The notes under the pieces were generated by a model, which was not told the origin of the DNA, ran no database searches, and worked only from the letters and a program-made list of their open reading frames with translations. Positions 11,700-54,847 of a stretch of 64,000 bases of DNA are shown here, piece after piece. Within the stretch, counting starts at the first letter, position 1. Each line of letters starts with the position of its first letter. A program made the translations under genes and the position numbers. The stretch is from Synechococcus sp. CS-1329 (lineage in GTDB: Bacteria > Cyanobacteriota > Cyanobacteriia > PCC-6307 > Cyanobiaceae): NCBI RefSeq assembly GCF_025128055.1, contig NZ_JAHLYS010000033.1:1-64000 (forward strand), written 5' to 3'.

Positions 11700-12539
11700 G
11701 TGACAGTGGAGCGCCCCCTGCGCCTGCACAGCCGCATCACCCCATCCGCGATCACGGCTCTTCGCACCGCCTCGGGCGACCGGGAGATCCGCGAAGCGGC
11801 CCTGGAGCAGTTCGGCGATGGGCTGGTGGCGGAGTTCGCTGCGCTGCAGCCCCGGCTGGAGGCATTCCTCGACGACTGGGGATCCGAGGAAGCCGGCGAC
11901 GAAGATGAGGGCGACGAGTCGCCGAAGCGGGGGCTGCCGGATAAACGCCGCAAGAAATTGCTGGATGGAACCACCTGGCAGCGTGACGAGCAGCTGGTCG
12001 CTGCTGCTGAGGCGCTGCGGGAGCTGTTCAGCGATGAGCTGTTCACGGATCACAACCACTTCCGCGCCGAGGTGCAGAAGGGGCTGAAGCTGCAGGGCCT
12101 CAAGCTCTCGGCCCCTGATCTGAAGCTGCTGCTGCGGGAAACCAGCTGGCGAGAGGAAGCTGCCCCCGCCGTGATCGCCAAGGCGCACAAGCCCGGCAAG
12201 ATGGCTCCGGATTCGCTCCATGGCTTGTTTGAAGCTGAGATCAGCGGCAAGGCCTGCGTGGTGGAGTACGAGCCGGATGTGGATCTGCGCGACAGCGAAC
12301 AGATCCCGCTGCTGGAGGAGGGCGGCATCGAGGCCTTCATCCGCCGCGAGGTGCTCCCCTTCACGCCCGATGCCTGGATCAACGCCGAAGCCACCAAAGT
12401 TGGCTACGAGGTGAGCTTCACGCGCCACTTCTACAAACCCAAGCCGCTGCGGTCCTTGGCCGAGATCGCCGCCGACATCCGCGCGATTGAGCAGGAGGCC
12501 GAGGGGCTGCTGGATGGGCTGCTGGTGGGGGCCAACTGA
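11700..12539 (+). CDS. hsdM: HsdM C-terminal region, same frame after the amber codon
   Basis: 279 residues from a GTG three bases after the TAG. It carries the HsdM C-terminal region (TVERPLRLHS..., a central charged stretch, then DLRDSEQIPLLEEGG, FTPDAWIN and YEVSFTRHFYKPKPLRSLAEIAADI), which contacts HsdS in type I complexes. It is in the same reading frame as the first part, so the parts could be joined by amber readthrough or made separately by re-initiation at the GTG. If neither happens, the methyltransferase lacks its C-terminal region. Confidence 0.85.
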   Translation: MTVERPLRLHSRITPSAITALRTASGDREIREAALEQFGDGLVAEFAALQPRLEAFLDDWGSEEAGDEDEGDESPKRGLPDKRRKKLLDGTTWQRDEQLVAAAEALRELFSDELFTDHNHFRAEVQKGLKLQGLKLSAPDLKLLLRETSWREEAAPAVIAKAHKPGKMAPDSLHGLFEAEISGKACVVEYEPDVDLRDSEQIPLLEEGGIEAFIRREVLPFTPDAWINAEATKVGYEVSFTRHFYKPKPLRSLAEIAADIRAIEQEAEGLLDGLLVGAN

Positions 12540-12649
12540 AGGGTGGTCATGGGCAAGGCTGAGATGCGCATGCAGCCCAACAGCCTCCATAGTGAAAGCT
12601 CTATTTACCATGGAAGCAGAAAGCCTCCATGGGAAAGGAACAGCAACAC

Positions 12650-16946: not shown

Positions 16947-17044
16947 CAGAGGAGTTAGCAAAGCCCCTAGCAGAGGCCCCGAACGGCACAAGCCAATGAC
17001 GTGCCCCAGACTGCCCACAGGCCAGCCACAACCACCCGGCCCCC

Positions 17045-20000: not shown

Positions 20001-20086
20001 AGTTCAAGGACAACTCCCTCTTCCGCAACTTTGTGCGGGATCTGGTGACGCGACTGATCAACAACAACCCCCACAAATCACCATAG
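17045..20086 (+). CDS. hsdR: Type I restriction endonuclease subunit HsdR
   Basis: 1013 residues. The N-terminal nuclease domain has the D...ExK signature in LDLALFINGLPVATFELKN (E173-L-K175). The SF2 translocase motor follows with Walker A GSGKS (about 325), motif II DEAH (433), motif III FTATA, and the later QTGYDEPLLQAMYVDKAL and QTLSRLNR motifs. A C-terminal helical region binds the methylase. It hydrolyses ATP to translocate DNA and cuts unmodified phage DNA. All motifs seen are intact. The 3' end converges on and overlaps the DUF6880 gene by nine bases. Confidence 0.95.
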   Translation: MPTDTSEQGLEALITRSMTGRTHLLEPRHQATPSAVPVSGGTGWLLGDPRHYDRSHCVDLVQLQGFLEATQPQIAEAVAIEVDGPPRRQFLARLEKQITQRGVVDVLRKGIRHGPHEIQLFYGTPSPGNSRAAELFGLNRFSLTRQLAYSNDQTRRALDLALFINGLPVATFELKNNLTCQSVKKAIEQYKTDRDPREPLFAFARCLVHFAVDEQEVRFCTHLIGKESEFLPFNRGTASGGAGNPPSPDGLSTGYLWERVLTPSSLTDILENYAQVVGKPNLRTGRRRYRQIFPRYHQLDVVRSLLADVATHGAGRCYLAQHSAGSGKSNSIAWLSHQVADVTHNGERVYDSVIVVTDRRNLDEQLRHNILDFMQVGASVGAVTGRGSSKTEQLKQFLAAGKKIIICTLQTFPELCSQLDGAPQGRRYAVIIDEAHSSQGSKASAALNKALASDAQPLAEDTDIEDFVNTVIDERLRSRKLLANASYFAFTATAKAKTLGLFGTPLPPDGEGKIGRRPFHVYTMKQAIEEKFILNVLQYYTPISSYYRLVKTIEADPLFDSKRARSKLRRYVESHDTAIRNKAEIMVDHFLDHVLPLREMKGEARAMVVTGAIERAVQYFHAIRTYLHERRSPFLPIVAFSGDHDFGDGPVSEASLNGFPSSEITSRIQEDPYRFLICADKFQTGYDEPLLQAMYVDKALGGIQAVQTLSRLNRAAPGKNRVFVLDFQDNTAAVEAAFADYYKTTLLSEETDPNKLHDLRDSLDQLRVYTWEQVEEFVGLFLSNSDREELQPILNQCRQIYTEQLSEDDQVAFKSKAKAFVRSYDFLATILTYDNPEWEKLSIFLTLLVRALPAPDEDDLTKGMLELIDMDSYRIEKQEERGVPLPDQDSTLDPAPVSAGGFKPQPELEPLSVIVINFNEQFGTSFSDEDRIRRLIREEIAPQVAQDQRYRNAKANTPNTAAIELDAALNRVVDPLFLDQTEFYKQFKDNSLFRNFVRDLVTRLINNNPHKSP

Positions 20087-31049: not shown

Positions 31050-31379
31050 TCAGCGGGCCAGGCCCAGGAACACCAGCAGCGATCGGTTGAGGCGCAGCAG
31101 GTCAGCGTCGGAGAGCTGACCGATCTTCTGGCCAAGGCGGCTCCTGGGCACGGTCATCAGCTTGTCCACCATCAGACGGCTGGTGCTGCGGAGACCGTTC
31201 GCCGCCGTCGGCTCCACCTGGATGCGGAGGATCGGGGCGTCGATCGGCTCACTGGTAAGAGGACACAGCGCAATCGAAAGCGTTTCCGCAAAGCCGTCCT
31301 CCTGGATGATCACGGCTGGACGGGGTTTGCTCGCGTAGCCAGGACCACCGGCCATGGTCCAGATCTCTCCTCGCTTCAC
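31050..31379 (-). CDS. mazF: MazF/PemK-type toxin (mRNA interferase)
   Basis: 109 residues from a GTG start: KRGEIWTMAGGPGYASKPRPAVIIQ, then ITLCPLTSE-like SIALCPLTSEP and STSRLMVDKLMTVPRSRLGQKIG. These are the PemK/MazF core strands with the RPAVIIQ and DKLMTVPR motifs that form the RNA-cleaving surface. It would cut mRNA when the antitoxin is lost. The GTGA overlap with the upstream antitoxin is the standard toxin-antitoxin arrangement. Confidence 0.88.
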   Translation of the reverse strand: MKRGEIWTMAGGPGYASKPRPAVIIQEDGFAETLSIALCPLTSEPIDAPILRIQVEPTAANGLRSTSRLMVDKLMTVPRSRLGQKIGQLSDADLLRLNRSLLVFLGLAR

Positions 31380-40667: not shown

Positions 40668-41448
40668 AGGGCAGCTTGCTCAGCGCCCAGGGCCACGCCT
40701 GTGGCACTCGCGAGATGTCGATCACATACTCCTGGCCCGGAGACGTGGTGGAGAGCCGGGCCGTGCCATCGCCAAGATCACAGAAGTGACGTCTGCGATG
40801 GCGGGACATCGTGACGCTGTGATCATCGGCAGGAATCAGGAAAGACGGAACACTCCACTGGCTCATCCGCTCACCCGCCGAGAGGCGCAAGCTGGCGTTG
40901 TAGTGATCAAAGACTCCGGCCCCTGGCAGCCCCTCCACGCCAGGCCAGGTGAGGCGATCAGCCGCCGAAAAGATCACATTTCTGCTGTGATGCTTAAGGG
41001 CAGGGGCGGCATGGGGATGGTAGGTGAGCCAGTCTGGAAGCACATCGGCCTCCGGCCAGTGCATCTCTCCCACCTGCATCCATCCCCAGATGACGTGACT
41101 GCCTCGCATCGGCAAGAACGCACCCTTGAACCATCCATAGAAGAGAAACAAATCACCCACACCCACCCCCTGATGCAACAGATGCGTCAGGGCTCCATCG
41201 CACTGGCCAAACGAAGGCCGCCAGCCGGGCTGGCGCGGAAGGGCCTGCTGCCGCAGATCAGGGTCGAGATGGGCCAACCCAGACAGGCCCGCAGGCAGAC
41301 CACGGATGCTCTCATAGGTGATCCCATGGGCAAACCCATCCTCAGGAATCGGCACACTCAGCATCGCCCCATCGGCAGCCACCAAGCTGGCCCTCTTGCC
41401 GTAGGAGGTGTCAGACCCCTTTCGGCTGAAGATGAGTTTCAGAGCCAA
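40648..41448 (-). CDS. Nmad3-type protein (nucleotide modification associated domain 3)
   Basis: 266 residues starting KLIFSRKGSDTSYGKRASLV and containing TYESIRGL, HLDPDLR, PGWRPSFGQCDGALTHLLHQGVGVGDLFLFYGWF and HVIWGWMQVGE, then LTYHPHAAPAL and NVIFSAADRLTWPG. This is the Nmad3 pattern, predicted from comparative genomics to act with DNA or nucleotide modification systems. The chemistry is unknown. No base-modifying partner is adjacent here, and the 3' end overlaps glnT by 20 bases in convergent orientation. Confidence 0.75.
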   Translation of the reverse strand: MALKLIFSRKGSDTSYGKRASLVAADGAMLSVPIPEDGFAHGITYESIRGLPAGLSGLAHLDPDLRQQALPRQPGWRPSFGQCDGALTHLLHQGVGVGDLFLFYGWFKGAFLPMRGSHVIWGWMQVGEMHWPEADVLPDWLTYHPHAAPALKHHSRNVIFSAADRLTWPGVEGLPGAGVFDHYNASLRLSAGERMSQWSVPSFLIPADDHSVTMSRHRRRHFCDLGDGTARLSTTSPGQEYVIDISRVPQAWPWALSKLPFSRAGV

Positions 41449-41656
41449 GATTTTGCGACAGTGACTGATCCCCTCTCCACAGCCATGGCAAGCGCTGACT
41501 TGCAGCCATCAGCCCATTAAGAACCACGATCAGCCTCATTATAGCTCAGATCGAAAGAGCAGAGAATGCTGCCACAAAGCACACCGATTCTCGAGGCGCC
41601 AAGCAATCTTCCACGCTTTCAGGAAATCACAGAACAGAACTGATTGAGCACCAAAG

Positions 41657-41678
41657 CGGCTCCAAGGAAGCGGAGCCG
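41657..41678. promoter_or_regulatory. Hairpin just upstream of the thermonuclease gene
   Basis: CGGCTCC and GGAGCCG form a perfect seven-base stem around an eight-base loop, ending 15 bases before the ATG at 41694. The place suggests control of translation initiation, or a terminator, though no long T run follows on the plus strand. Confidence 0.3.
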
Positions 41679-41693
41679 TTCAGACTCAGCGCC

Positions 41694-42341
41694 ATGCCAA
41701 AGCTCCCACTGCCGTGGCCAGGTCTGCTGGTCATGGCCCTGCTGGTGACCCCTGCCTGTACAGCCCAGGGCATCCAGGCCACAGTGCTCTCCGTCGGAGA
41801 TGGCGACACCATCCGTGTTCTGCAGGGGAAGCAACGGCTCACGGTCCGCCTCGCCTGCATTGATGCACCGGAGATGGCCCAGGCGCCCCACGGTGCCAAC
41901 TCCAGAAATGCCCTTCAAAGCCGGTTGCCGGTGGGGCGTGTGGTGCAACTCAACGTCAAGACCAGGGATCGCTATGGCCGCACAGTGGCGGAGGTGATCA
42001 GCTCTGGCAACATCAACCTGGCCATGGTGGCGAGCGGCCAGGCCTTCGCTTACCGCCAATACCTGGGAAACTGCAAGGCCAGCGACTTCCTTGAAGCCGA
42101 ATCGAAGGCGGGCCTGCGCGGCCTGGGCGTGTGGCAGCTGAGCGGTGGAATCCTCAGGCCCTGGGACTTCCGCCGGGCCAAAAGAGCAGCACGAGCCCCG
42201 GCTGGCAGCCCCTCAGGGCCACGTCGCTACGACTGCCAGGAGATCGGCTCCCACCAACGGGCCCAGGAACTGCTGCGCCAGGGTCACAGCTATCTCGATG
42301 GCAACGGCGACGGCGAAGCCTGTGAACAGCTGCTGCGCTGA
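41694..42341 (+). CDS. Secreted thermonuclease with C-terminal Excalibur motif
   Basis: 215 residues. A signal peptide (WPGLLVMALLVTPACTA, with a possible lipobox cysteine) leads to the staphylococcal-nuclease fold: GDGDTIRVLQGKQRLTVRLACIDAPE with the catalytic Arg and Asp, GRVVQLNVKTRDRYGRTVAEV with the second Arg, and LRGLGVWQL. The C-terminus YLDGNGDGEACEQL is an Excalibur calcium-binding motif. It likely degrades extracellular DNA or RNA at the cell surface. It stands alone on the plus strand. Confidence 0.88.
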   Translation: MPKLPLPWPGLLVMALLVTPACTAQGIQATVLSVGDGDTIRVLQGKQRLTVRLACIDAPEMAQAPHGANSRNALQSRLPVGRVVQLNVKTRDRYGRTVAEVISSGNINLAMVASGQAFAYRQYLGNCKASDFLEAESKAGLRGLGVWQLSGGILRPWDFRRAKRAARAPAGSPSGPRRYDCQEIGSHQRAQELLRQGHSYLDGNGDGEACEQLLR

Positions 42342-42361
42342 GACTCAGGGCCAACCTGAGC

Positions 42362-42853
42362 TCATGGCCTGAGCGGATCAGCGATCCAGAACCGCTCGCC
42401 AGTGGCTTCAGCAAGGCGTTCGGCGAAATCCTGTGCTGCCTCGGCCTCGCTGAAGCTGGCCGCCTGCAGCCAGCCGCTGGCATTGATGTAGGCATCGCCG
42501 CAATAACGGCTGCGAACGCTGGCGAGCAGCTCGCGGCTGGAAGAGGCAACAACGGGCCACCATTCCCCTGAGGGGGAGCCTCTGGAGCCGCAGCTGTCCT
42601 GGAAGGCCAGCGACTGCGCTGCTGATGACGGCGTTGGAGATGTCATGGGCACCATGAAGCGCACGGCCATCAGCCCGAAAACACCCATGAGCCCGATGAG
42701 GACGATCCTGATCCAGACCACGGAGCCTGGCGCGGAAAGGGTTGGATTCCTCTGCGAGGATTGCCCGCTCGATCCCACCTTCTCCAGCTCAGCCAAAAGA
42801 CGCTCGGCCTCATGGCCGGTGGATTCAATACTGCCATCGGCAGGATCAGACAT
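42362..42853 (-). CDS. Single-span membrane protein with SPOR-like C-terminus, function unknown
   Basis: 163 residues: a polar N-terminus, one membrane helix (VVWIRIVLIGLMGVFGLMAVRFMV) at about residues 46-68, then an extracytoplasmic part with two cysteines. The end YINASGWLQAASFSEAEAAQDFAERLAEATGERFWI has the SPOR-like pattern (V/LQxGSFxxxxxAxxLxxxL), which in other proteins binds denuded septal peptidoglycan. The SPOR resemblance is suggestive, not certain. It is divergent from the VWA-tubulin cluster to its right. Confidence 0.65.
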   Translation of the reverse strand: MSDPADGSIESTGHEAERLLAELEKVGSSGQSSQRNPTLSAPGSVVWIRIVLIGLMGVFGLMAVRFMVPMTSPTPSSAAQSLAFQDSCGSRGSPSGEWWPVVASSSRELLASVRSRYCGDAYINASGWLQAASFSEAEAAQDFAERLAEATGERFWIADPLRP

Positions 42854-43272
42854 CTGGACTCAAACAATCGAGACGGACAGCAGCTTGATGAGACATGCCC
42901 ACGGCGAACACTCATGCCCGTAAGTTCTTTGACTATAATTGGAAAAGGTTGCAAAAGGGTAAATGCACAGCACTAGCCAGAATTGGCGTACGTCAACGCA
43001 CAGTCCAAGGCCGAGCTGGATGCGATAATTCCCAGAATGGTCCAGTCGCGGAACGACAGTCAGCCATGATCGCCAAGGCCATCCTCGGATTGACTCGATC
43101 CTGCGAACAACCTGAGCAGTCGGTTGTTCGCAGCAACTCCGGCCAGCCGCTGTTGCTTCAGGCCAGAATCCACTCTGATCTTCAGACCAATCCTGCTGTG
43201 TTACAGCCAGCTGCCCGGAAGGGTTGAAGCCAAGCCATGGCCCATCAGCATCAGAACAAGGGGACCCACGGC
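42854..43272. promoter_or_regulatory. Intergenic region with promoter-like element before the tubulin/actin cluster
   Basis: About 420 bases without a convincing gene. A perfect -10 hexamer TATAAT lies at 42933-42938 on the plus strand; a -35 hexamer at the right distance is poor, so activation by another factor is possible. A transcript from there would have a leader of roughly 300 bases to the VWA lipoprotein. An open frame from 42895 to 43227 has no recognisable motif and unlikely composition. The 43237 ATG of the VWA frame falls in this stretch. Confidence 0.35.
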
Positions 43273-44556
43273 ATGGTGCTGCGTCGATGGCTGCTTTTCT
43301 CTGGCCTCATCCCTTTGGCAGGGTTGTCGTCCTGCGGCAGTGAGCTACCTCCCTGCCTCAACTCCAAAGCCAACGCTGAAGCAGCGACCCCAGCAGCTCC
43401 GGCGAAGGCTGATGCCAAGGCCTTGATGATCGGCATTGATGGCAGCGGCTCCATGTTGGGCCATGCCGAGGCCGGCGACGCCTCAGGCTGGCGCAATCTG
43501 CTTCAGGCCATCAATCTCTCAGCTGAAACCATTGGGCTCTCCTCCCAGGGCTTCCGTGTTGGCGGGCAGAAGATACAGCCACTCACAGGCGGCAAGGTAA
43601 CGCAGGCCACAGATCCATGTTTCTTCAAGGGCTGTGGCAGCTACCCACCAGTGAGCTCCAGCCTGCAAACCCTCTGGACGGCTAGCTCAGGGAGTGATGC
43701 CATTCCACTGAGGCTGCTGGTGAGTGATCTGGAGGTGAATCAAAGCGATATTTCCAGTTTGGTAGGCGGGATTCGCACGGATCTTGCCAAGGGAGCTTCC
43801 GCAGGAGTTCTCGCGCTGAAGCTGCCATTCAATGGCAAAGTTTTTGACCCTCAGGGCAACAACTTTTACACTGGTAAGCTCAATCGGCCACTCTATCTTC
43901 TGGCAACTGGTAAGCCAGAGCAAGTCAAAGATTTGCTTGCTCTGATCCAAAGCACAATGGCCCAGAAAGGGGTTGCGGCGCAGGAGCTTTCCATGTTGGA
44001 GCCCAAGAGGAGCGGCAGTCCGTTGACAATCAAGTCAATTGCAGCAGTCCCGTTGGCCAAGGGGAAGCCTGATCAACCCATTCGCATTGGCAACAGCCAA
44101 TATTCAGCGGGACGCAACGGCGACTATCGCTCCATACAACTCTTGCCTGGTGCCACTGGTGTCGTCGTCGACACAATCAAACCATGGGGCGAAGGCAGCA
44201 GCCGAGGCGACCTTGGTCTGGTACGTCTCGAACGTATTCCGTTGTTGCCCACAGATACCAGCGAGGCTGGTGGTATTCGCCTGAGGAGCATGAGCATGGC
44301 CAACTCCAACATCCGTCTGGAGCTGGACATTCCCGCAACGGCCCCTGCTGGCTTGCTCAGAGCCACGATCCCACAGGGCAACATGCCAGATCAGTGGTGG
44401 TTTGACTGGGATCGCTCAGACCCCAGGAACGCCAACGCCAAACAACAGACGGAGGGCCTCCTCCTGCTCATGACCACCCTCGGCCAACAGATTGCAGCCA
44501 GGGACCCCAACACGCCACCGGCAGCTGTGCTCTGCATCGCCTTCCAACACAACTAA
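43273..44556 (+). CDS. VWA-type lipoprotein, first gene of the tubulin/actin-like cluster
   Basis: 427 residues from the ATG at 43273 (an ATG at 43237 is 12 codons upstream). The signal MVLRRWLLFSGLIPLAGLSSC has a lipobox with Cys21, giving a lipid-anchored protein. A von Willebrand A-like domain follows: IGIDGSGSM carries the MIDAS DxSxS residues (D56, S58, S60), with later LLVSDLEVNQSD as the second strand. The C-terminal part is beta-rich (IRLRSMSMANSNIRLELDIPATAP). A metal-dependent binding role outside the membrane is inferred. The next gene is 11 bases downstream. Confidence 0.75.
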   Translation: MVLRRWLLFSGLIPLAGLSSCGSELPPCLNSKANAEAATPAAPAKADAKALMIGIDGSGSMLGHAEAGDASGWRNLLQAINLSAETIGLSSQGFRVGGQKIQPLTGGKVTQATDPCFFKGCGSYPPVSSSLQTLWTASSGSDAIPLRLLVSDLEVNQSDISSLVGGIRTDLAKGASAGVLALKLPFNGKVFDPQGNNFYTGKLNRPLYLLATGKPEQVKDLLALIQSTMAQKGVAAQELSMLEPKRSGSPLTIKSIAAVPLAKGKPDQPIRIGNSQYSAGRNGDYRSIQLLPGATGVVVDTIKPWGEGSSRGDLGLVRLERIPLLPTDTSEAGGIRLRSMSMANSNIRLELDIPATAPAGLLRATIPQGNMPDQWWFDWDRSDPRNANAKQQTEGLLLLMTTLGQQIAARDPNTPPAAVLCIAFQHN

Positions 44557-44567
44557 CCCCACCAGCC

Positions 44568-45104
44568 ATGCGATCTCAACAAGGCATCTTGCTCGGCCTT
44601 TCCTTCGTTGCAGGGCTCCTCTGGGTGTTCGTGGTCCAGAAATGGATGTTCCTCAACGTTTTCTCTGGCGTTCTGGCCGGTCCAGGCCTTCCTCTCAACG
44701 ACTACCTCCAGCTCGCCAATGAACCCGCCTTCACCATGCTCTGGATCAGCTGCATCAGTGCGCTGATGATCTGGTTGTGGATCACCTTCAGAGCCCGGCC
44801 GCGCAACGGCGCCGAAGTCAGGCGAATGAAACCTCTGTGGTGGACCGCTGCTGTGATTCTGGTGTTGCTGGGTTGGTTGTATCAACTCTTTTTCAGCATC
44901 ATCATCTGGCAGCTCCAAGGGCAATCTCCTGTTCAAGGCAGTGGCATGAATTTCTTTCTTCTACCGCCAGGAGGCTGGCTCCTTTTGACAATGATGGTGA
45001 TGATTAATGTGACCTTGTTATTCTGGCTGCCCACCTTGCTGGCCTCACCGAGGACCTATCGATTGGTTGTGCCGGGTGCTGTGAAAATCCTCGGAGGTCG
45101 TTGA
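44568..45104 (+). CDS. Four-helix membrane protein of the tubulin/actin-like cluster
   Basis: 178 residues with four hydrophobic segments: GILLGLSFVAGLLWVFVV, FTMLWISCISALMIWLWITF, WTAAVILVLLGWLYQLFFSIII and WLLLTMMVMINVTLLFWLPTLL. No known domain is recognised. Its place between the VWA lipoprotein and the tubulin-like gene, with only an 11-base gap before and one base after, suggests it anchors the complex in the plasma membrane. Confidence 0.7.
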   Translation: MRSQQGILLGLSFVAGLLWVFVVQKWMFLNVFSGVLAGPGLPLNDYLQLANEPAFTMLWISCISALMIWLWITFRARPRNGAEVRRMKPLWWTAAVILVLLGWLYQLFFSIIIWQLQGQSPVQGSGMNFFLLPPGGWLLLTMMVMINVTLLFWLPTLLASPRTYRLVVPGAVKILGGR

Positions 45105-45105
45105 A

Positions 45106-46623
45106 ATGAGCGTGTTCGCCATCGGCGTCGGCGGTACCGGAGCCAAGTGCCTCGAAGCCCTCACCCATCTCCATACCTGCGGCCTGCTCGAACAAGGCGG
45201 CACCAGTGTGCGGCTCGGCACATTTCTGGTGGAGCCCGACCAGCAAAGCACCCTGCTGGCAAGGGCCGAAACAGCAATCGATCGATACCAGAAGATGCGC
45301 AGGCTGCTGGGCAGCAAGGCCGATCATTTCGCCCGGGGGGAGCTGCGTCACTACGGCACCTGGAGCCCGCTCAGTAACTCATCCGGAGCCATCAGCCTCG
45401 ACCAGGTGTTCCCCAAGGCCATCCTGCGCACCAGGGCCAGTGGCCTGGCCGCCCTGTTCGATTGTCTCTTTCCCCCGGAGGAGCAGGCCGCTGATCTGGA
45501 GGTGGGCTTCCGGGGCCGTCCGCCGATCGGCTCAGCGGTGATGAGCCGCGTGAGCCTCACCGCCGAAGCGAAGACCGGGCAGTGGCAACAGATGCTCAGC
45601 GACATCGAAACAGCCAGCGGAGGTGGTGAAACACCTGTGATTCATCTCTTCGGCAGCGTATTCGGTGGAACGGGTGCCTCCGGCGTTCCCACCCTGGGAC
45701 AGATGCTCAAGAGCTGGTTAAAGGAACAGGGACTGAACAAGGTCAAGGTCAACGCCTCGCTACTCCTGCCCTACTTCGACTTCGAAGGTCAGGCCAGGGA
45801 GGACACCGGTGTTCATGCCGAAGCACGGAATTTTCAGCTCAACACCGATGCCGCCCTGCAGTATCTGAGAAGCAGCGGCACCTCCTGCTTCGATCAGGTC
45901 TATCTGGTGGGCAGCGACATCAAAGCTCGCTACGACTTCAGCATCGGTGGCCGCTCCCAGGCCAATGGCGCCCACCTGGTGGAACTTCTGGCAAGCCTGG
46001 GGATGCGCCACGGGCTCAAGGCCGATTCATCGAGCCATTACGCCCATGTCCTGAGCCGAGCTGTTGAGAACAAGATCAGCTGGGGTGATATCCCCGACAG
46101 TGAAGTAGTGGGTGAGGGTATGGCCCGCGCCGCGCGTTTTGGCGTGGCCTGGCTGAACAACATCAGCCTGGAACTCGATGCAGCCCAAAGTGTGCCGATG
46201 CCCACGTTCCTCAGTGGTGCCCCCTGGGCCCATCAATTCTTTCAACCCAGTGGCCAGGCCAGCGGCACCCAGGCCGGTCGGCCCAGTATCCGCAGCAGCG
46301 AGGAGCTGAGCCTCAAGACAGCAATTGACGCTTATGTCGAAACCTTGCTGCAGTGGCTTCAGCAGTTCAGCAGCAACACCGGCACCGGCTTCAGCCAGGA
46401 GCTGTTCACACCCGAGTTGCTTGAGCGCAACTCCAACTACGAGAACGCCCTCGGCAGGGTGGTGCGTGGCTCAGCGCGGCCAAGCCGGGATGAGCAGGAC
46501 GACACCGTCGAGGCCATCAAGGTGCTGATGGATGCCCTCAGCCACAAAAAGATCAGCCACAACGGAATGGCTGGTCTGGCTGACACCCTCTGGTCCCTCA
46601 GTTACTGCGACACCGGACTCTGA
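45106..46623 (+). CDS. Tubulin/FtsZ-like GTPase
   Basis: 505 residues. The N-terminus FAIGVGGTGAKCLEALTHL is the first nucleotide-binding loop, and FGSVFGGTGASGVPTLGQ (F186 onward) is the tubulin-superfamily GTP signature, equivalent to GGGTGSG/GGGTGTG. Later HLVELLASLGMRHGL and YDFSIGGRSQANGAHLVEL fit the core fold. This is not cell-division FtsZ, which is about 380 residues and keeps GGGTGTGAAP. It resembles the FtsZ-like families that comparative genomics placed in predicted membrane-remodelling operons with VWA and OmpA proteins. It is in the middle of an operon-like run. Confidence 0.75.
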   Translation: MSVFAIGVGGTGAKCLEALTHLHTCGLLEQGGTSVRLGTFLVEPDQQSTLLARAETAIDRYQKMRRLLGSKADHFARGELRHYGTWSPLSNSSGAISLDQVFPKAILRTRASGLAALFDCLFPPEEQAADLEVGFRGRPPIGSAVMSRVSLTAEAKTGQWQQMLSDIETASGGGETPVIHLFGSVFGGTGASGVPTLGQMLKSWLKEQGLNKVKVNASLLLPYFDFEGQAREDTGVHAEARNFQLNTDAALQYLRSSGTSCFDQVYLVGSDIKARYDFSIGGRSQANGAHLVELLASLGMRHGLKADSSSHYAHVLSRAVENKISWGDIPDSEVVGEGMARAARFGVAWLNNISLELDAAQSVPMPTFLSGAPWAHQFFQPSGQASGTQAGRPSIRSSEELSLKTAIDAYVETLLQWLQQFSSNTGTGFSQELFTPELLERNSNYENALGRVVRGSARPSRDEQDDTVEAIKVLMDALSHKKISHNGMAGLADTLWSLSYCDTGL

Positions 46624-46668
46624 CCCCAGTCGTTACCTGCCCCAAACGCCACTTCACTCGCCACCGTC

Positions 46669-49600
46669 ATGACCCAAGGCAACAACTCCAGCAATATTCT
46701 GCAGTTTCCCTGGTTGCCGAAGACCGACCCTCCCCAGGCAGGTGGCGCCCAGGCGGGGACCTGGCTCGGCAAGGATCAGCAGAAGCTGGGGGAGATCGCC
46801 AATACGCTCGTCTATGAGGTCACCAACAGCCGGGTGAATGCACTGCCTTCCCCCTGGTCGCGGGCCTTGCAATTTGAGCAAGCGGTGAGGAATCCTCGCT
46901 ACCCCACCCGTGCAGCCTTGCTGGAGGAGCTGTTCGGCTGTTTCGCCACCGTGGGGCTGTGGGAGATGTTCGGCCTCAAGCTCGAGGCAGAGAAGGTGGC
47001 TCTAACCGACCTGATCACCAGCCAGGACGAGGCGGTGGGGCCGTTCGCACGCAGCCTCTTTGGCTCGCGGCCCAACGGGGATCAAACCCTCTACTCCCTG
47101 GCTGATGGCAGCAACCCCTGGAGCACCGTTCACGTGCTGAAAGTGGAGGGAGTGGTGATCGGCTTCACATCCCCTGCCACGGTGCTGTGCCCAGCTGTTC
47201 ATTTGCCCACCACGATTCCCGGCATGAACTGGACAGCCAAGGGACGCTTCGGTGGGCCCACCAGCTTTCTTGGAGCTCAGCAGCGCCAGGCTCTGGCCGA
47301 CTGGCTGGCCCATGTGAACGAAGGCCTGCTCAATGCTCCCGATCACCTCAGTGACGCCCTGGCGGGGCAGATGGATCAGGTCTTCACAGGCTTCATCGAG
47401 ACCCTCAACGGTGGCCACGCCAGCAACGTGATTCTCTCCGACAATTCGGTGATCAGCCTGCGTAACAGACCCACAGCCGTATCCCTGCTGGCCCGTGCTG
47501 CCAAAGGTGGCGAAAGCCCAAGCCTGGCCACCGTGGAACTGGGCGATCGCCGCGAACGACCCCTCAAGGGCACTCCTGTACGCCCGGTGATTCTGCTGGA
47601 TGCGGAGATGCCCAATCGGCTGGGACTGACAGCCAACGACATCGTGCTGTACAAGGCCGCCACCCTGGAAGCCATCGGAGGAGACAAGACAAAGCTCGAG
47701 CGGCAATATGGCCACGAGATCGATGTGATCACACCTGATGACATCTTTCTGCCAGAGCTCTATCTCCTGCCAGGGGAATCGGCGCTGGCCAATTCCTGGC
47801 TAGGCAGCCGCCTGGAAGGCAAGCCGATGGTGAACGGCATTCCCGTGACCCCCCTGCTGCCACTGAACGAGCGCATCCGTGAACTGTTCAGCAGCGCCGA
47901 GCTCGCCAGGAGCTGCAGCCTGCGGCTGGTACAGACCGGCAGCGGCATGGGCATTGAAATGACCCTGATGCTGCCACTGCAAGGGAGCCGGACGGCCTAC
48001 CCGATCACCAAGCACTTCCCGATCAAGGAGCAGAACCTGATCGACCAGGATCTACCAGTGATCACCCTCTGGCCCAACATTGCCGATCTGAACTGGAAGC
48101 ACTTCTTCATCTTCTGCGATGACAGCAGTTCAGGCCTGACCGTGGACGGCTTCGAGGACTATGACCTTCACAAAGGCAGGGAAGGCCAGGAAAGTGTCAA
48201 ATACTTCACAAGCAAGAGCTTTCCAGATCTGATCAAGCTGATTGAGCGTGGCCAGAACTGTGGATTGATCCCTGTCAATCCGCCACCTCCTGCCAGCAAC
48301 ACTGCAGCAACCTGGCGCGTTGGTATCGATTTTGGCACTTCATTCACCAATTTCTTCATCGACGACGGTTCTGGCCCGAAAAGAAAGCCACTGGATACCC
48401 GAGTCATCTCATTGGCAAAGGCGCAAGAAGAAACAAAGCTTAATCAACTTTACAAGTACTTCATTCCTGAAACTCTCTTGCCGATAGGCTCGAATCCTCC
48501 GACATCGACAGCCCTGAATACCTTTGGATGGCAGGAAGTCAAAGGCACAGTTCCCAAGCTTTATCATGAATCCAGGATTCAATGGCCAAGTGAGAATGCC
48601 AATGCTCTGCGTGGGCTCAATATCCGTACAAACTTCAAGTGGCGACAGTTGCAATACCAGAAGCCATTTCTCAAGGAATTGGCCCTGCTGATCAGCTGCA
48701 ATGCCGCTGCAGCCGGTGCAACGGAGCTGGCCTGGTCTGTGTCTTACCCAAGTGCCTTCTCCAAAAACGAAGCCCAAAGCTATCGGCGACTGTGGAGTGA
48801 CCTCTGCAATGACCTCGCTCCACTGACCGGCCTCAAGCAGATCTTTGTTGAGGACAGCCATGAGGGAGGGCTTCAGACTGAGGCCGTAGCCTTCGCCAGC
48901 TATTTCGGCAACCACCAGGGTAAGCCGATGGTTCATACAGCCTGCCTTGATGTTGGTGGAGGAACCACTGATATCAGCCTCTGGCAGGAGAATCGGCTGC
49001 TGCATCAGGTCTCCATTCCCTTTGCCGGACGCAACATCTGCACCAGTGTGCTGCAAAACAAGCCAGCTTTCATGCACTTCCTGTTTCCACCCAGCCTCAC
49101 AGGGGAAGTCAGTGGGAACAAGGCGCAGCTACGCCAGGACCCGAACTTCAACAGCTGGTTCGACAACTGCTTGCGCTATCAATCTGATCAGCTGCTCAGC
49201 GATCGAATGCCGATTCATCGTGCCGATCAAGAACGCCAGTTGATTGAGTTTGTGAGCCTCATGGCCGTGAGCTTTGGTGGCCTCTACCACTATCTCGGGC
49301 TGATCCTGAAATCCCTGAACCGAGAAGGCCTTTTGCGCAAGCAGGCAACGATGCCAATTTATATGGGCGGCAATGGCGCTCGCTTCCTGAACTGGCTGGA
49401 TGAGAGTGGCTCCTTCTCCCGGAACTGCGATGCCGACCAACTCATGGGAATCCTGCAGAGCAAGAGCTCTGCTTTTGAGTCAGGTCAGAATGGCACCGCT
49501 GAGACAACACTCTCTGATGCCTTCAAGGATGAAGCAGCTTGCGGCCTGATCAGCAGTGGAGTGAATCTGCAGGGCATTTTTGACCCGAAAGATGAGTTCA

Positions 49601-49956
49601 TGGTGGCCGGAGAAGGGCTGATGATCAACGACAGAACATTCAATTCACTGGACCGTGTTCGAACTGACGGGCTTGAAACCATCAGCAGCTATGAGATAGC
49701 CAGCCTGACTGAACTACGTCAGTTCGCCAGCAACTACGACGAGGCCTTGAATAGCGCCAGAATCAGCTCACTCCTGCCGATTCGCAGCCTCACCTGCATG
49801 GACAGTCTCTGGGGAGAGGTGGAGACGCAGGTGCGGGCGCTGTGCCTGGAGCGCATCAGCAAACGTGTGAACGATCTTGAGCCCGAACCTGCATTCATCA
49901 CAGGGCTCAAGGCGCTGAACCACGTTTTATCCCAGCAGTGGGCAGAACGCTTCTAA
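46669..49956 (+). CDS. Large protein with novel N-terminal region and actin/Hsp70-like ATPase domain
   Basis: 1095 residues. Residues 1 to about 540 match nothing I recognise; they contain no membrane span and no low-complexity stretch. Residues about 550-1000 form an actin/Hsp70-type ATPase: phosphate-1 IDFGTSFTNFF (D554), phosphate-2 LDVGGGTTDISLW (D761) and the adenosine loop MGGNGARFL (899-903). It could be a polymerising actin-like filament protein or a chaperone-like ATPase. It lies 45 bases after the tubulin-like gene and 32 before a coiled-coil membrane protein, so the two nucleotide-driven proteins are probably co-produced. Confidence 0.8.
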   Translation: MTQGNNSSNILQFPWLPKTDPPQAGGAQAGTWLGKDQQKLGEIANTLVYEVTNSRVNALPSPWSRALQFEQAVRNPRYPTRAALLEELFGCFATVGLWEMFGLKLEAEKVALTDLITSQDEAVGPFARSLFGSRPNGDQTLYSLADGSNPWSTVHVLKVEGVVIGFTSPATVLCPAVHLPTTIPGMNWTAKGRFGGPTSFLGAQQRQALADWLAHVNEGLLNAPDHLSDALAGQMDQVFTGFIETLNGGHASNVILSDNSVISLRNRPTAVSLLARAAKGGESPSLATVELGDRRERPLKGTPVRPVILLDAEMPNRLGLTANDIVLYKAATLEAIGGDKTKLERQYGHEIDVITPDDIFLPELYLLPGESALANSWLGSRLEGKPMVNGIPVTPLLPLNERIRELFSSAELARSCSLRLVQTGSGMGIEMTLMLPLQGSRTAYPITKHFPIKEQNLIDQDLPVITLWPNIADLNWKHFFIFCDDSSSGLTVDGFEDYDLHKGREGQESVKYFTSKSFPDLIKLIERGQNCGLIPVNPPPPASNTAATWRVGIDFGTSFTNFFIDDGSGPKRKPLDTRVISLAKAQEETKLNQLYKYFIPETLLPIGSNPPTSTALNTFGWQEVKGTVPKLYHESRIQWPSENANALRGLNIRTNFKWRQLQYQKPFLKELALLISCNAAAAGATELAWSVSYPSAFSKNEAQSYRRLWSDLCNDLAPLTGLKQIFVEDSHEGGLQTEAVAFASYFGNHQGKPMVHTACLDVGGGTTDISLWQENRLLHQVSIPFAGRNICTSVLQNKPAFMHFLFPPSLTGEVSGNKAQLRQDPNFNSWFDNCLRYQSDQLLSDRMPIHRADQERQLIEFVSLMAVSFGGLYHYLGLILKSLNREGLLRKQATMPIYMGGNGARFLNWLDESGSFSRNCDADQLMGILQSKSSAFESGQNGTAETTLSDAFKDEAACGLISSGVNLQGIFDPKDEFMVAGEGLMINDRTFNSLDRVRTDGLETISSYEIASLTELRQFASNYDEALNSARISSLLPIRSLTCMDSLWGEVETQVRALCLERISKRVNDLEPEPAFITGLKALNHVLSQQWAERF

Positions 49957-49988
49957 ACCTTGAATCCTGGCCAATCCAGCCTGCCACC

Positions 49989-51026
49989 ATGAAAGATCCA
50001 AAAATTCATAGTGACCACAGCAAAAACTATCTTATGCTGGCTCTGGTGGCTGCAATCGCCATCGCCCTGCCAGCGGCAGTGCAGCAAGCAGCTTTTGGGC
50101 TTCCCTGGCTTGGCGCCGCACAGGAGGGCGCTTCGCAGCTGGAGGCTGGGAGCCCATCCCTTTCAACTCCTTCAGAGGAGAGCGAACAAAAGGGCCCCAC
50201 TTGGTGGGACAATATTATTCTATGGAGGATTCTGACAGCCATTGGCCTTGTCTCTAGCGGCACTTCACTGATCCTATGGGCGATCTATTTCTGGCGCTAC
50301 GATATATCGGTCATAGAAAGGGGAAGTGCACGCAAGATCCGACATGCCATGAGAAGCAGGCAAGGCAAAAGCAGTCGTTTCGACGATGTCGAAGATCATG
50401 CTCAGGCACTCTACGAGAAGCTGAGCAAAGCTTCAACAGCGACAGAGCTACACAAAGAGCGAGAGGAACGCACACTTCAAGACCGGGCTATTCAGTCCAT
50501 GATCCAAATCTTTCAGAATGAAACCGCCAGCCGGATCACCAAACTTGAGGCACTGATCACTGATCCCTCTAAATCATCAAGCGTGGCTACGCCATTGGCA
50601 GCTCAAGAGCACAAGGATCTCAAGATCTTGCCGCCACCTTCCCCTACGGCCGAGCTGGTTATGGAGTTTCAGGCCGCATTTCAAAACAACGACAGAGATG
50701 CCATTAGAAGAATCATGCCCAACGAACTGAATATTATCGATGAATCTGAAAACACCCTGGCCCTTGGCTTTTCACAGAACAAGACCCAACTGCGAACTGT
50801 ATCCGGAGGCGGGAGCTATCTGCTGATTCAACGGAACAACAGAGACTGGCTGCTCCCCACCTTTCAAACGTTGACTGGCATGACAACCAGTCAGCCGGCC
50901 AAAGGCCTCTTTACCTACGAGCGCCAGAGCGTTTCCTGCGCAGAATTAAAACGCCCCGCTGAAGTGAAAATGCTGGGTGAAGTCTGGGAAGTGGTCAACA
51001 TGGGAATTGTGATCGTTCCAGCTTGA
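49989..51026 (+). CDS. Two-span membrane protein with coiled coil and shared C-terminal beta module
   Basis: 345 residues from the ATG at 49989. Two hydrophobic segments (LMLALVAAIAIALPAAV and ILWRILTAIGLVSSGTSLILWAIYFW) enclose a short polar loop. A cytoplasmic basic coiled coil (KIRHAMRSRQGKSSRF to SRITKLEALIT) follows. The final 90 residues (GGSYLLIQRNNRDWLLPTF, GLFTYERQ, LKRPAEVKMLGEVWEVVNMG) match in pattern the products at 51034-51747 and 54153-54842. Function unknown; it may link the actin-like protein to the membrane. Confidence 0.7.
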   Translation: MKDPKIHSDHSKNYLMLALVAAIAIALPAAVQQAAFGLPWLGAAQEGASQLEAGSPSLSTPSEESEQKGPTWWDNIILWRILTAIGLVSSGTSLILWAIYFWRYDISVIERGSARKIRHAMRSRQGKSSRFDDVEDHAQALYEKLSKASTATELHKEREERTLQDRAIQSMIQIFQNETASRITKLEALITDPSKSSSVATPLAAQEHKDLKILPPPSPTAELVMEFQAAFQNNDRDAIRRIMPNELNIIDESENTLALGFSQNKTQLRTVSGGGSYLLIQRNNRDWLLPTFQTLTGMTTSQPAKGLFTYERQSVSCAELKRPAEVKMLGEVWEVVNMGIVIVPA

Positions 51027-51033
51027 GGCAGGC

Positions 51034-51747
51034 TCACCCCCGCGCCTCGAGCTGGCTGAGGCGTTGCTCCAGCTCTGCCATCTTTTGAGTCATGCTGGCC
51101 CTGATTGGATCGGGATGGACACTGAGCTCACCCTTCGCTTTAAGCTGCCACCGCCTGCCGAACACCACCGCCTCGGCCTCGGCCGGACGGATCATGTGCA
51201 AAACAACGGGCAGCTCTTTCACGCCAGTGATGTCAAAAAGGCGCTCCAGGGATTGCAGCTGGGTCCTGCGCTCCAGGCTGCCGGGCCGAGGCAACAACAG
51301 CCAGCCATCATCAAGGGTTTCGAGCGCCCAGGTGGTGCCCTGCTCAACAACTTCCAGTTCAACCTCGCCAATCTCGCCAGTGAGGGTGCGTCCACTGACG
51401 CCGCAGGAGCGGCTGAAGGGCTCAAGCAGAATGGGTGTGCTGGCGTAGGCGTCAAGGATGGCCACCAGCGATAGATTCAAGCTGGGAATCACTCGCTGAG
51501 CCGAGTCAGTCGTCACAGGCAAATCGGATGCCGCAGGGCGCGGTGATGAAACCTGGGGCTGAGATATGCCATCGCTCCAGGCCGGCTCGAACCGTGCAAG
51601 CCTCTCATGGAGATCATTGAGATCAGCCATGACTCCATCAAAACTCCGTGTCAGCTTTGCATCTGTCTCGAGGAAACGATCGCTCAACTGTTTAACACTT
51701 TTAAGCAGAAACTTAATGGATTCAATGATCTTGTCGTCAGCGGCCAT
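51034..51747 (-). CDS. Coiled-coil protein with the shared beta module (minus strand)
   Basis: 237 residues: N-terminal coiled coil (IIESIKFLLKSVKQLSDRFLETDAKL), a Pro/Ser linker, the beta module (VELEVVEQGTTWALETLDDGWLLLP, RLFDITG, MIRPAEAEAVVFGRRWQLKAKGEL), and a short C-terminal coiled coil (TQKMAELEQRLSQLEARG). It is soluble. It is the only gene of the cluster on the minus strand, lying between the actin-like half and the motor half, with its start 159 bases from the MotA-like start in divergent orientation. Function unknown. Confidence 0.68.
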   Translation of the reverse strand: MAADDKIIESIKFLLKSVKQLSDRFLETDAKLTRSFDGVMADLNDLHERLARFEPAWSDGISQPQVSSPRPAASDLPVTTDSAQRVIPSLNLSLVAILDAYASTPILLEPFSRSCGVSGRTLTGEIGEVELEVVEQGTTWALETLDDGWLLLPRPGSLERRTQLQSLERLFDITGVKELPVVLHMIRPAEAEAVVFGRRWQLKAKGELSVHPDPIRASMTQKMAELEQRLSQLEARG

Positions 51748-51905
51748 GAGGTCTGCATTGGCACTCTGTTACTGCCAGCGTAGCGAAGCCAACTCAGGAT
51801 TCGTCCTGATGAATCGGGGCTGTCCTCCACCCCTGAAAACGCACACTCCTGGAACTAACATGGTGTCACGCTGATTGATCGGAAAGCACCGGTCACCGAG
51901 TCTTG

Positions 51906-53546
51906 ATGAGTGATCTGACTGTCCTGACGACTCTCTCCAAGGTCATCATTCTGGTGTTGCAGCTGCTGGTGGCCCTCGTCGCACTTGAATTGTCTGCTCG
52001 TCTGGCTCGGCTCACCACTCCGCTGGCCGTCAAGCTCGCTGAGCTTCATCAGAACGGCTCCACTGCCATTGAGCTGGGAGATCGCCTGACCCGCATCAAG
52101 GAGCGCTACATCTCCCTGATCGCCCATGTCGACAATGTTGACGCTGCCGAGTTCAGTGCCGGCGAAATTGAAACGATCTCGCTGCCATTCTTCCAGTCCA
52201 GCATCACCGCTGCCGCCGCGCAGAGCTGGCTGCGGCAAGCACCTGGAATTTTGATTTCCCTGGGTCTGCTGGGAACATTCACCGGTCTCACCGTCGGCCT
52301 GGGCCAGATCGGCGGGGCCTTGGGCAAGAACGCCAGCACCGCAGACACCATCACGGCACTCTCCAGCATCGTTGCACCGATGGGTGCCGCCTTTCAAACG
52401 AGCCTACTGGGCCTGTTTCTGAGTCTTGTGGTCCTGATCTGGACGCAGATTGTTGGCACCAGAACATGCCTGGAGCGCTGCGAAGCCCTGTTGAGCAGCT
52501 GGCTGGAAACCGTGCTTCCTCAGCAACTCGGCAGCAAGGTCATTACCCCCCTGCGTCAGTCGATTCAGGACCTGAATGAGTCGGTTCAGAATCTGCCTGT
52601 AGCCGTTTACTCCGCCATTGAGACCGCCATGAAGGAGGCCTTTACCGCCAAGCTCAACACAATGTTTGACGCCAATACGAACCTGACAGCAGAGGCTCAG
52701 ATCGCCGTTCGCCAGATCGGAGTTATCGCCGGCGCACTCAATGAAAGCGGTCAGGACTTTGTTCAGGCTGCTCAGGCTTTCCGCGACAGCGACTTTGCAA
52801 CAACCCTGCAACAATCAGTTCAGAGTTTGCATGAGTCACAGGAGCGGCTCACCACCAGCAGCAATGGGCTCAGTGCCCGGCTTGTGGATGTGCGCGATGG
52901 CCTGTTCGCCACCCAGTCCGATTGGCAGCTGCTCGCCAAGACGGCTGAGCAGGAGCTGGGAACCTGCCGAAGGGCCTCCCAACAGATCCAGCGGGAGATC
53001 CAGGTTCTGCAGCAGGCGGCCATCAGCCTGGAGAACGGCACCCAAGCGGCGAAGGAATCCAGCAAGCAGCTGCGTGAAACACGTCTGGAGGTGATGCGCG
53101 ACAGAAAACTTGCCATCGCAATCGCCGAAACGGTCCAGAGCCGCCTGACATCAGATCGCTCCGTGGCAGAAAGTTGTCAGGTGTTTGCCTCAGGCCTTGA
53201 GAGCGCTCTGAGCAACTGGAACCGCAATGTTGAGCGGCTTGATGGCCTCACGGCAGCCTATGTGAATTCACTCCAACAGGCCAAGCGGGAGGATGAGCAG
53301 ATGCTGGTTGAGCGCAGCAAGCTGGCCCGTCAGAGCATTGAGCAGCTGGGTCAACAACTGCAGCAGGATCTCCTGGCCGCCATTGAGGTTCAGCGAACGG
53401 CCATGGCACAACTTGGCGCACCCGCTATTGAGGCCAAGGCCCTCAGTGAGCAGCTGCTCCAGCAGCTTCAGGTTCTGCAAGCTCGTCTGGCCAGCCTGCG
53501 GGTGCTGGAGCCACCGATCTCCCCCGATCCTGCAGGGGGTCGCTGA
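51906..53546 (+). CDS. MotA/TolQ/ExbB-like channel subunit with long coiled-coil tail
   Basis: 546 residues from the ATG at 51906. Helices lie at about 12-32, 112-135 (APGILISLGLLGTFTGLTVGLG) and 158-183 (APMGAAFQTSLLGLFLSLVVLIW); the last two are the conserved MotA/TolQ/ExbB pair. Residues about 200-540 are a long helical tail (QSIQDLNESVQNLP, ALNESGQDFVQAAQAF, QIQREIQVLQQAAISLENG). Such tails are known in ZorA of Zorya anti-phage systems, whose motor uses the proton-motive force. The next gene, two bases on, is the expected MotB/ZorB-like partner. Confidence 0.82.
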   Translation: MSDLTVLTTLSKVIILVLQLLVALVALELSARLARLTTPLAVKLAELHQNGSTAIELGDRLTRIKERYISLIAHVDNVDAAEFSAGEIETISLPFFQSSITAAAAQSWLRQAPGILISLGLLGTFTGLTVGLGQIGGALGKNASTADTITALSSIVAPMGAAFQTSLLGLFLSLVVLIWTQIVGTRTCLERCEALLSSWLETVLPQQLGSKVITPLRQSIQDLNESVQNLPVAVYSAIETAMKEAFTAKLNTMFDANTNLTAEAQIAVRQIGVIAGALNESGQDFVQAAQAFRDSDFATTLQQSVQSLHESQERLTTSSNGLSARLVDVRDGLFATQSDWQLLAKTAEQELGTCRRASQQIQREIQVLQQAAISLENGTQAAKESSKQLRETRLEVMRDRKLAIAIAETVQSRLTSDRSVAESCQVFASGLESALSNWNRNVERLDGLTAAYVNSLQQAKREDEQMLVERSKLARQSIEQLGQQLQQDLLAAIEVQRTAMAQLGAPAIEAKALSEQLLQQLQVLQARLASLRVLEPPISPDPAGGR

Positions 53547-53548
53547 CC

Positions 53549-54151
53549 ATGGCCCGCAGCCAACGTCGTTCCAGCAGCAGCGACAGCAACCACTGGATCG
53601 GCTACACCGATCTGCTCAGCAGCAGCCTGCTGATTCTGCTATTGACCATCGCCATCTCGTCCCTGGCCCGTGCCAACAACGAGAAGCCACCACTGGTGCG
53701 CCTGACGGAGCGGGAATCATTTCGGTTTCCAACCGGTAGCTACACCCTCAGCCCTGAGTTCATCAAGGCCCTGGATCAGCGTGTCCCGGAAATCCTCGCC
53801 ACGATCTCGAAGTATCGAATCGACAGCGTTGAAGTGATTGGCCACACCGATGGTCAGCCATCACCTGGATTGAGCAATCTGGATCTGTTGATGCCAAAAG
53901 CCAGTGGTTCATCCAGCCTGAGTGGATTCAGGGCGGGCTCCAATGCCGATCTGGGATTGCTACGGGCCCTGGCGGTGGCCCATCATCTGCGCAACAAGCT
54001 GGATTCCGATGGCTCCAGAGGCCTGATCATCCGGCCCTATTCGGCTGGCAGTCTGATCAATGATGATGGCACCTATGCCCCTGCAGACACCAGGGATCGC
54101 GCCGAACGCCGCCGGATTGAGCTTCGCTTCACCCGCCAAAAGGAGAGCTGA
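53549..54151 (+). CDS. MotB/OmpA-like peptidoglycan-binding stator subunit
   Basis: 200 residues with one N-terminal helix (YTDLLSSSLLILLLTIAISSL) that begins with Asp21, matching the ion-binding Asp of MotB-type stators, and an OmpA-like domain (ESFRFPTGSYTLSPEF, VEVIGHTDGQPSP, NADLGLLRALAVAHHLRN, DTRDRAERRRIELRF). The OmpA core binds peptidoglycan and so anchors the motor. It forms a two-base-spaced pair with the MotA-like gene. The linker between helix and OmpA domain is short, as in ZorB. Confidence 0.85.
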   Translation: MARSQRRSSSSDSNHWIGYTDLLSSSLLILLLTIAISSLARANNEKPPLVRLTERESFRFPTGSYTLSPEFIKALDQRVPEILATISKYRIDSVEVIGHTDGQPSPGLSNLDLLMPKASGSSSLSGFRAGSNADLGLLRALAVAHHLRNKLDSDGSRGLIIRPYSAGSLINDDGTYAPADTRDRAERRRIELRFTRQKES

Positions 54152-54152
54152 G

Positions 54153-54842
54153 ATGAATGCCGCCACGCCCACGCCCCTTGAGCGCCTTCTGCACCTGGAG
54201 ACCAGCCTCGATCAATTGCAGCTCCAACTTGCCCAGCCGCGGCCGAAGCTTGAAGCGAACGATCACCCCCTTCCAGCGCGTCAGCCCTGGCCCGTTGACG
54301 AACTGCTGTTGATCCGGCTGCTGCGTCGCACCCCAGCAGCCCTCGCTGCGTACCAGGCCCCGGCAGAGCTCAGCAGCACAAGCCAGCGGGACCTGCGCCT
54401 GACCACATCCCAGACGGGATCACCCTTCCAGTTCTGTGAACTGAACCATGGTGGTGCGGTGGTCTGGATCACTGCAGATTCTCCATCATGGATCTGGGGC
54501 AGTGAAACCTTTCAACAGTTGTTCAGCGTGCCCAGTGGTGTGGAAGCCAGCCCTGATCTGGTGGTGCAATCATTGCCGGTGTTCAATCCTGTGGTGCGAG
54601 GCACAACCTGGAGCCTGTTCCGGCGAGGAGAAATGGTGCCTCGCCATCGGCTGTCTCCAGAGAATGAGCAGCAGGGAATGCTGCTGCGCCGTATCGAGAC
54701 CTTGGAGCGTCGGCTCAGCCAACAGATGATCCGGCAGGACACCGAGATCAACGAACTGAAGACCCAACTGCACATTCAGCAGAACGTTCTCGACCGTCTG
54801 TTGCGGATAACAGAAACCAGGCAACCCGATTCCAGTGGGTGA
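54153..54842 (+). CDS. Coiled-coil protein with the shared beta module
   Basis: 229 residues from the ATG at 54153, with an AGGAG site just upstream, overlapping nothing and starting one base after the MotB-like stop. The N-terminus LERLLHLETSLDQLQLQL is helical. The beta module (CELNHGGAVVWITADSPSWIWGS, QLFSVPSG, VFNPVVRGTTWSLFRRGEMVPR) follows the same order of strands as in the products at 49989-51026 and 51034-51747. A long C-terminal coiled coil (LLRRIETLERRLSQQMIRQDTEINELKTQL) ends it. Function unknown. Confidence 0.7.
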   Translation: MNAATPTPLERLLHLETSLDQLQLQLAQPRPKLEANDHPLPARQPWPVDELLLIRLLRRTPAALAAYQAPAELSSTSQRDLRLTTSQTGSPFQFCELNHGGAVVWITADSPSWIWGSETFQQLFSVPSGVEASPDLVVQSLPVFNPVVRGTTWSLFRRGEMVPRHRLSPENEQQGMLLRRIETLERRLSQQMIRQDTEINELKTQLHIQQNVLDRLLRITETRQPDSSG

Positions 54843-54847
54843 TCCAC

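Follow-up and report, generated by a model that had tools for sequence, protein, structure and literature searches.

The window analysed here, a 64,000-nucleotide stretch of contig NZ_JAHLYS010000033.1 from Synechococcus sp. CS-1329, contains a nine-gene block at positions 43,273–54,842 in which a tubulin-like protein, an actin/Hsp70-fold protein, a lipoprotein, several beta-module proteins and a ZorA/ZorB-like ion-motor pair are encoded side by side. The host genome is Synechococcus-like, 2.58 Mb in size, and the closest named relatives with the same system are Synechococcus sp. SynAce01 and BSA11S. The arrangement is well beyond chance, because the same gene order recurs in distant genomes, and the block very probably constitutes a functional unit. 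Its core, made up of the lipoprotein, a small transmembrane (TM) protein and the tubulin-like and actin-like proteins, travels as a unit, and the ion-driven motor is probably a plug-in module. We propose, with moderate confidence, that the block encodes a mobile, modular, envelope-spanning nucleoside triphosphatase (NTPase) machine with a ZorAB motor that works in defence.

Components of the block

All features named in the original prediction, which described nine genes in one tight block, were found again in the sequence, with two corrections to the layout. The gene at 51034–51747 is encoded on the minus strand and converges with the other eight on the plus strand, and this orientation relative to the core is kept in eight Cyanobiaceae loci. 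The last gene is present, and its most likely start is 54153, which is preceded by the Shine-Dalgarno sequence AAGGAGAG, instead of 54060.

The protein encoded at 45106–46623 (505 residues) belongs to the tubulin/FtsZ superfamily, as had been predicted. It matches Tubulin_2 (PF13809) with a score of 31.4 bits against the Pfam cut-off of 27 (E 1.6e-7) and carries the GGTG-type nucleotide loop of Tubulin_2/FtsZl1 in the form FGGTGASG, which is nearly invariant in 24 relatives; the assignment is a profile match combined with a motif, not a predicted fold. The gene at 44568–45104 encodes the expected four-helix membrane protein (4 TM segments, 178 residues), whose relatives directly precede the tubulin-like gene in most loci. 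A small TM protein also occupies the equivalent position in a Prevotella locus (L017) and in five IMG/VR contigs (L103–L107). The lipoprotein (43273–44556) had been described as a VWA protein. Its lipobox cysteine, Cys-33, is invariant, and the DxSxS motif and later aspartate of a metal ion-dependent adhesion site (MIDAS) are present as DGSGSM and Asp-164, with Asp-68 and Ser-70 conserved in 18 of 19 relatives and Ser-72 and Asp-164 in all 19; Cys-40 and Cys-433 are conserved as well. The open reading frame (ORF) opens at 43237, and the start at 43273 yields the lipoprotein signal. No Pfam or NCBIfam VWA model matched up to E 1, and a match to integrin alpha-M had E 0.88. Since no VWA profile matches, it is the MIDAS motif, together with the context, that supports the name VWA.

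The 1095-residue protein (46669–49956) comprises an N-terminal domain and, from about residue 550 to the end, an ATPase of the actin/Hsp70 fold. An AlphaFold2 model built with 27 relatives has a predicted local distance difference test (pLDDT) score of 82.7 and a predicted template modeling score of 0.72, and Foldseek aligned it with MreB, DnaK and BeeR at E of about 1e-6 and a probability of 1.00, so that the predicted actin-like domain passed the check by structure prediction that had been proposed for it. The match to an FtsA profile was weak. The phosphate-1, phosphate-2 and adenosine motifs of the actin/Hsp70 superfamily all lie in the C-terminal half, and the trio read from the sequence as DFGT, DVGGGTTD and MGGNG is almost invariant among the 27 relatives as DFGT, DxGGGTTD and GGNG. 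The sequence stops close to the end of the ATPase fold, with no evident substrate domain of the Hsp70 type behind it, and the predicted fold by itself would fit either actin-like polymerisation or an Hsp70-like cycle. SrfB (PF07520) was rejected as an identity for this protein, with 9.6 bits against a cut-off of 27.1 and a match confined to the phosphate-2 region.

Three proteins had been predicted to share a beta module, and iterated hidden Markov model searches confirmed this. The module is about 120 residues long, usually C-terminal and sometimes in tandem. It is found in a membrane-anchored protein of 362 residues (49938–51026; the ATG at 49989 is a possible start), in a coiled-coil protein of 237 residues (51034–51747, minus strand) and in the product of the last gene (54153–54842), which always follows ZorB and may serve as the adaptor of the motor cassette. 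The coiled-coil protein was modelled with confidence (pLDDT 89.6), and its model matched no known fold in the PDB or BFVD. The module is fused once, in L076, to a second actin-like protein, where it forms the N-terminus of the paralogue (5949–8879); in L077 a second actin-like paralogue (12943–15974) is followed by a separate beta-module gene.

The pair described as a MotA/TolQ-like channel and a MotB/OmpA-like stator is present and is specifically ZorA/ZorB-like, not MotAB-like. PADLOC models for ZorA and ZorB matched the channel subunit (51906–53546), which has a long helical cytoplasmic tail, at E 1.8e-17 and the stator (53549–54151) at E 4e-10. The ZorA family profile finds the E. coli ZorA structures, tail included, at E 5e-10, and the ZorB family profile matched PomB and ZorB about equally. 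Both proteins score far below the cut-offs of the NCBIfam ZorA and ZorB models, and for this reason we call the pair ZorAB-like. The stator combines a TM segment bearing Asp-21 with an OmpA/peptidoglycan-binding domain, as anticipated; Asp-21 is invariant in eight ZorB-like sequences and aligns with the aspartate of E. coli ZorB, and the HTDGQ and RRRIE motifs and the residues that bind peptidoglycan are likewise invariant.

Distribution of the core and exchange of the motor

Co-occurrence beyond close relatives had been set in advance as a test of the prediction, and the neighbours do recur in distant genomes, far outside the close relatives of the host. Among 36 loci, chosen by presence of a tubulin-like or actin-like gene, 34 contain both, in most cases accompanied by the lipoprotein and TM genes. 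Of 200 genomes of the order, 12 encode the tubulin-like protein; for the actin-like protein the count across the phylum is 27 of 386 genomes. The order lipoprotein, small TM protein, tubulin-like protein, actin-like protein is also found in the Prevotella locus and in the five IMG/VR contigs, two of which are near-identical. In all six the tubulin-like and actin-like profile scores are far above chance, and in L017, L104, L106 and L107 there is a match to the lipoprotein profile as well. Evolutionary distances of the tubulin-like and actin-like proteins correlate closely (r = 0.96), as do those of ZorA and ZorB (r = 0.97), with lower values of 0.71–0.81 between the core and ZorA.

ZorA and ZorB adjoin the core at eight loci and, in genome G146, at a ninth that is split over two contigs; all are cyanobacterial. 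A beta-module gene follows ZorA-ZorB in each of the eight cassettes not cut by a contig end, and the position and strand of the cassette vary among loci (L026, L029, L030). Within the order, 8 of the 12 genomes with the core have this ZorA type, as do 2 of the 188 without it (Fisher P 4e-10, with no correction for kinship), and no copies of this ZorA type were found on plasmids. It lies at contig ends in G196:C26 and G199:C17 (loci L093 and L094), from genomes in which the tubulin-like gene went undetected and assembly gaps may hide that gene. The G146 core groups with another genus (support 0.93–1.0) and the G146 ZorA with that of the window (0.999), a conflict of trees from which we conclude that the motor cassette has been exchanged against the core. 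Directly after the core, L106 and L107 carry a second, different channel and stator pair (ZorA E 6e-5, ZorB E 2e-7), the channel protein having a GTF channel motif, which is a further instance in which a ZorAB-type motor adjoins the core. The ZorA-like protein of L106 also matched haemagglutinin HA2, which we ascribe to coiled-coil chance. Other core loci have other partners, namely a Ser/Thr kinase with an ARC6-IMS domain, TM2 proteins and SPOR-like proteins. A SPOR-like single-TM protein of 163 residues is also encoded upstream of the block (42362–42853, minus strand; SPOR E 6e-4, just under the cut-off). Its family was found in 11 loci and is related to the kinase/ARC6-IMS proteins beside the Picosynechococcus core, and the gene may be an additional part of the block.

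The island and neighbouring genes

The block lies in a 14-kb island (40,806–54,846) with a GC content of 58.3%, compared with 62.5% to its left and 70.8% to its right. The island is missing at the same site in the congeners G064, G173, G112 and G073. In G173 window position 57,493 comes within about 70 bases after window position 40,805, and in G112 the sequence in common picks up again at 54,847, five bases past the last stop codon. G073 lacks the block at this site and has its own copy on another contig. Elsewhere the core is carried on plasmids of Picosynechococcus and Gloeothece, mobilizable ones included; a relaxase and an integrase lie beside the core in L103, and a resolvase and DNA methylases in L105. 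A phage origin was considered and rejected, as no actin-like homologue was present in 50,697 phage records or in a scan of viral contigs with the actin-like profile.

The island also contains a staphylococcal-nuclease/Excalibur gene (41694–42341), homologues of which lie beside the block in G073 and G146. Relative genomes have 2–16 full or partial copies of this gene, which is perhaps island-associated. Farther away in the window are a type I restriction-modification locus (10014–20086) with HsdM, HsdS and HsdR, where a Schlafen AlbA_2/HATPase protein is encoded between HsdS and HsdR, and a PemK/MazF-like toxin gene (31050–31379, minus strand). Downstream of both the core and a TPR protein, L103 encodes two small proteins (15682–16863) that look TerD-like on visual inspection; the one searched against Pfam had no match.

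Possible functions

The original prediction named membrane remodelling, motility or defence as the purpose of the block. Of these, motility received no support, and defence received indirect support. We consider the chances of a role in anti-phage or other conflict defence to be about even, favouring it because of the mobility and patchiness of the locus and the kinship of its motor with that of Zorya; it is more likely than membrane remodelling. More tentatively, the block may represent a new defence class in which a ZorAB-type envelope motor reports infection to the tubulin-like and actin-like NTPases through exchangeable beta-module adaptors. ZorB would grip the peptidoglycan, ion flow would drive a ZorA5B2 motor, and the lipoprotein or the motor would sense a disturbance of the envelope. 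The signal would then travel along the ZorA tail and by way of the beta-module adaptors to both NTPases, which may polymerise or otherwise assemble at the inner membrane, or remodel there, and so halt the invader or the cell. Such a system would use the sensing principle of Zorya and replace ZorC/D or ZorE by a cytoskeletal output.

Several observations weigh against this proposal. The core contains no recognisable nuclease or toxin effector, and the nine block proteins include no ZorC–G. PADLOC revealed no clear excess of defence genes in 137 flanking ORFs over 127 ORFs from random regions, in a crude comparison that drew on largely the same genomes and on uncurated ORFs. The fusion of a beta module to an actin-like protein in L076 would fit an adaptor role, but fusion does not prove contact. 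The motor is absent at most loci, and therefore the core must work without it. A single machine coupling two filament-forming NTPases to proton flow, as first envisaged, thus holds at most for a subset of loci, because the motor is an exchangeable accessory.

The lack of defence-gene enrichment in the flanks agrees with an accessory, housekeeping-like system for membrane remodelling or for vesicles or the cytoskeleton, in which the NTPases shape the membrane and the lipoprotein and stator anchor them to the envelope. Membrane proteins occur throughout the block, some loci have ARC6-IMS and SPOR-like neighbours, which are domains of division proteins, and PMC2875224 proposes such a role for the FtsZl1 family with its VWA and OmpA neighbours. 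We nevertheless judge this explanation unlikely, although it is the strongest of the rivals, since patchy presence (12 of 200 genomes in the order) suits a conflict or niche trait better, and the locus is carried on plasmids and with mobile elements, here as an island with an empty site. The ZorAB cassette could instead be a separate system that merely neighbours the core in a shared island. Its variable position and strand, its tree conflict with the core in G146 and a related ZorAB pair found elsewhere with C3a123/C3a124-like genes and without the core would all be expected if this were so. The beta module of the cassette, however, is of one family with those in the proteins of the core itself, the cassette co-occurs strongly with the core, and a motor pair of only distant similarity follows the core in L106 and L107, which makes independence improbable. 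An ion motor, a peptidoglycan anchor and a lipoprotein would also suit a surface or secretion apparatus, or one for gliding or swimming, with the ZorAB-like motor as its drive, and the same motor class drives gliding and type 9 secretion, according to PMC11890865. Most core loci lack the motor, however, no outer-membrane channel, adhesin or secretion gene was recognised in the block, the core is plasmid-borne, and among solved structures this ZorA type is nearest to the ZorA of defence, so that we regard an apparatus of this kind as the least probable of the alternatives.

Comparison with known systems

The block shares with Zorya a ZorA-type channel with a helical tail and a ZorB stator with a conserved aspartate and a peptidoglycan-binding domain. 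In place of ZorC, D, E, F or G it has tubulin-like and actin-like NTPases and beta-module proteins, and PADLOC models for ZorC and ZorD, ZorE, and ZorF and ZorG found no match up to E 1 among the nine proteins. Judged from its sequence, the block does not belong to Zorya. A second cyanobacterial ZorAB-like cassette (L095 1842–5758, L096 7274–11234, L097 6958–10969, L098 1046–5058 and L099 7441–11397) has related ZorA and ZorB proteins, but its partners are proteins of about 452 and 168 residues and it contains no tubulin-like, actin-like or beta-module gene. In the two cassettes tested, both 452-residue partners match PADLOC C3a124, and one 170-residue partner weakly matches C3a123; C3a probably denotes type III CRISPR accessories. 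A C3a124-like protein is also encoded 3.4 kb downstream of a core locus without ZorAB nearby (L074, 13246–14565).

The link between an FtsZ-like family and VWA and OmpA proteins, which the original prediction had cited, is real: FtsZl1 (Tubulin_2) operons with a tubulin-like protein beside VWA and OmpA proteins, and a proposed role in membrane remodelling, were described by Makarova and Koonin (2010, PMC2875224). As in our block, a tubulin-superfamily protein lies beside a MIDAS-bearing protein and in some cases an OmpA-domain protein; the distribution includes cyanobacteria, and kinases occur at some loci, as they do here in Picosynechococcus. In contrast, the accessible text names no actin-like protein or MotA/ZorA channel, the first-described member is a coiled-coil-containing protein of 1051 residues, about twice the length of ours, and the block lacks a P-loop GTPase. 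An extended coiled coil and a helical domain at the C-terminus make up the majority architecture of that family.

The GTPase-centric conflict systems of Kaur et al. (2020, PMC7159879) are membrane-linked mobile clusters that join tubulin-like and vWA proteins and, in another theme, HSP70, with a conflict role proposed by those authors. They are defined by a DO-GTPase and GAP1, neither of which was seen in the block, their tubulin and HSP70 themes are separate, they are reported to be nearly absent from cyanobacteria, and the accessible text mentions no ion motor. Pfam, NCBIfam and PADLOC matched a P-loop GTPase to none of the nine proteins, in searches that included no dedicated GAP1 model. 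The block is not one of these published tubulin/vWA GTPase systems, which are nonetheless its nearest conceptual relatives.

The tubulin-like/vWA association is thus already known. The combination of a tubulin-like protein with ZorAB or with an actin-like protein was not found in the searchable literature, a scope that leaves out supplements and bioRxiv, and an unlisted mention is possible, for example among the unnamed B families of PMC2875224. The actin-fold partner, the exchangeable ZorAB cassette and the beta-module adaptors likewise seem absent from that literature, and there is a fair chance that the block represents a new class of system. Three machines that have been studied separately, a tubulin-like GTPase, an actin/Hsp70-fold ATPase and a rotary ion motor, meet here in one mobile locus, with a core that spans more than one phylum. 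The FtsZl1 prediction of 2010 thereby gains a concrete set of partners, and the locus points to ZorAB as a general plug-in motor with several outputs, beyond the effectors of Zorya.

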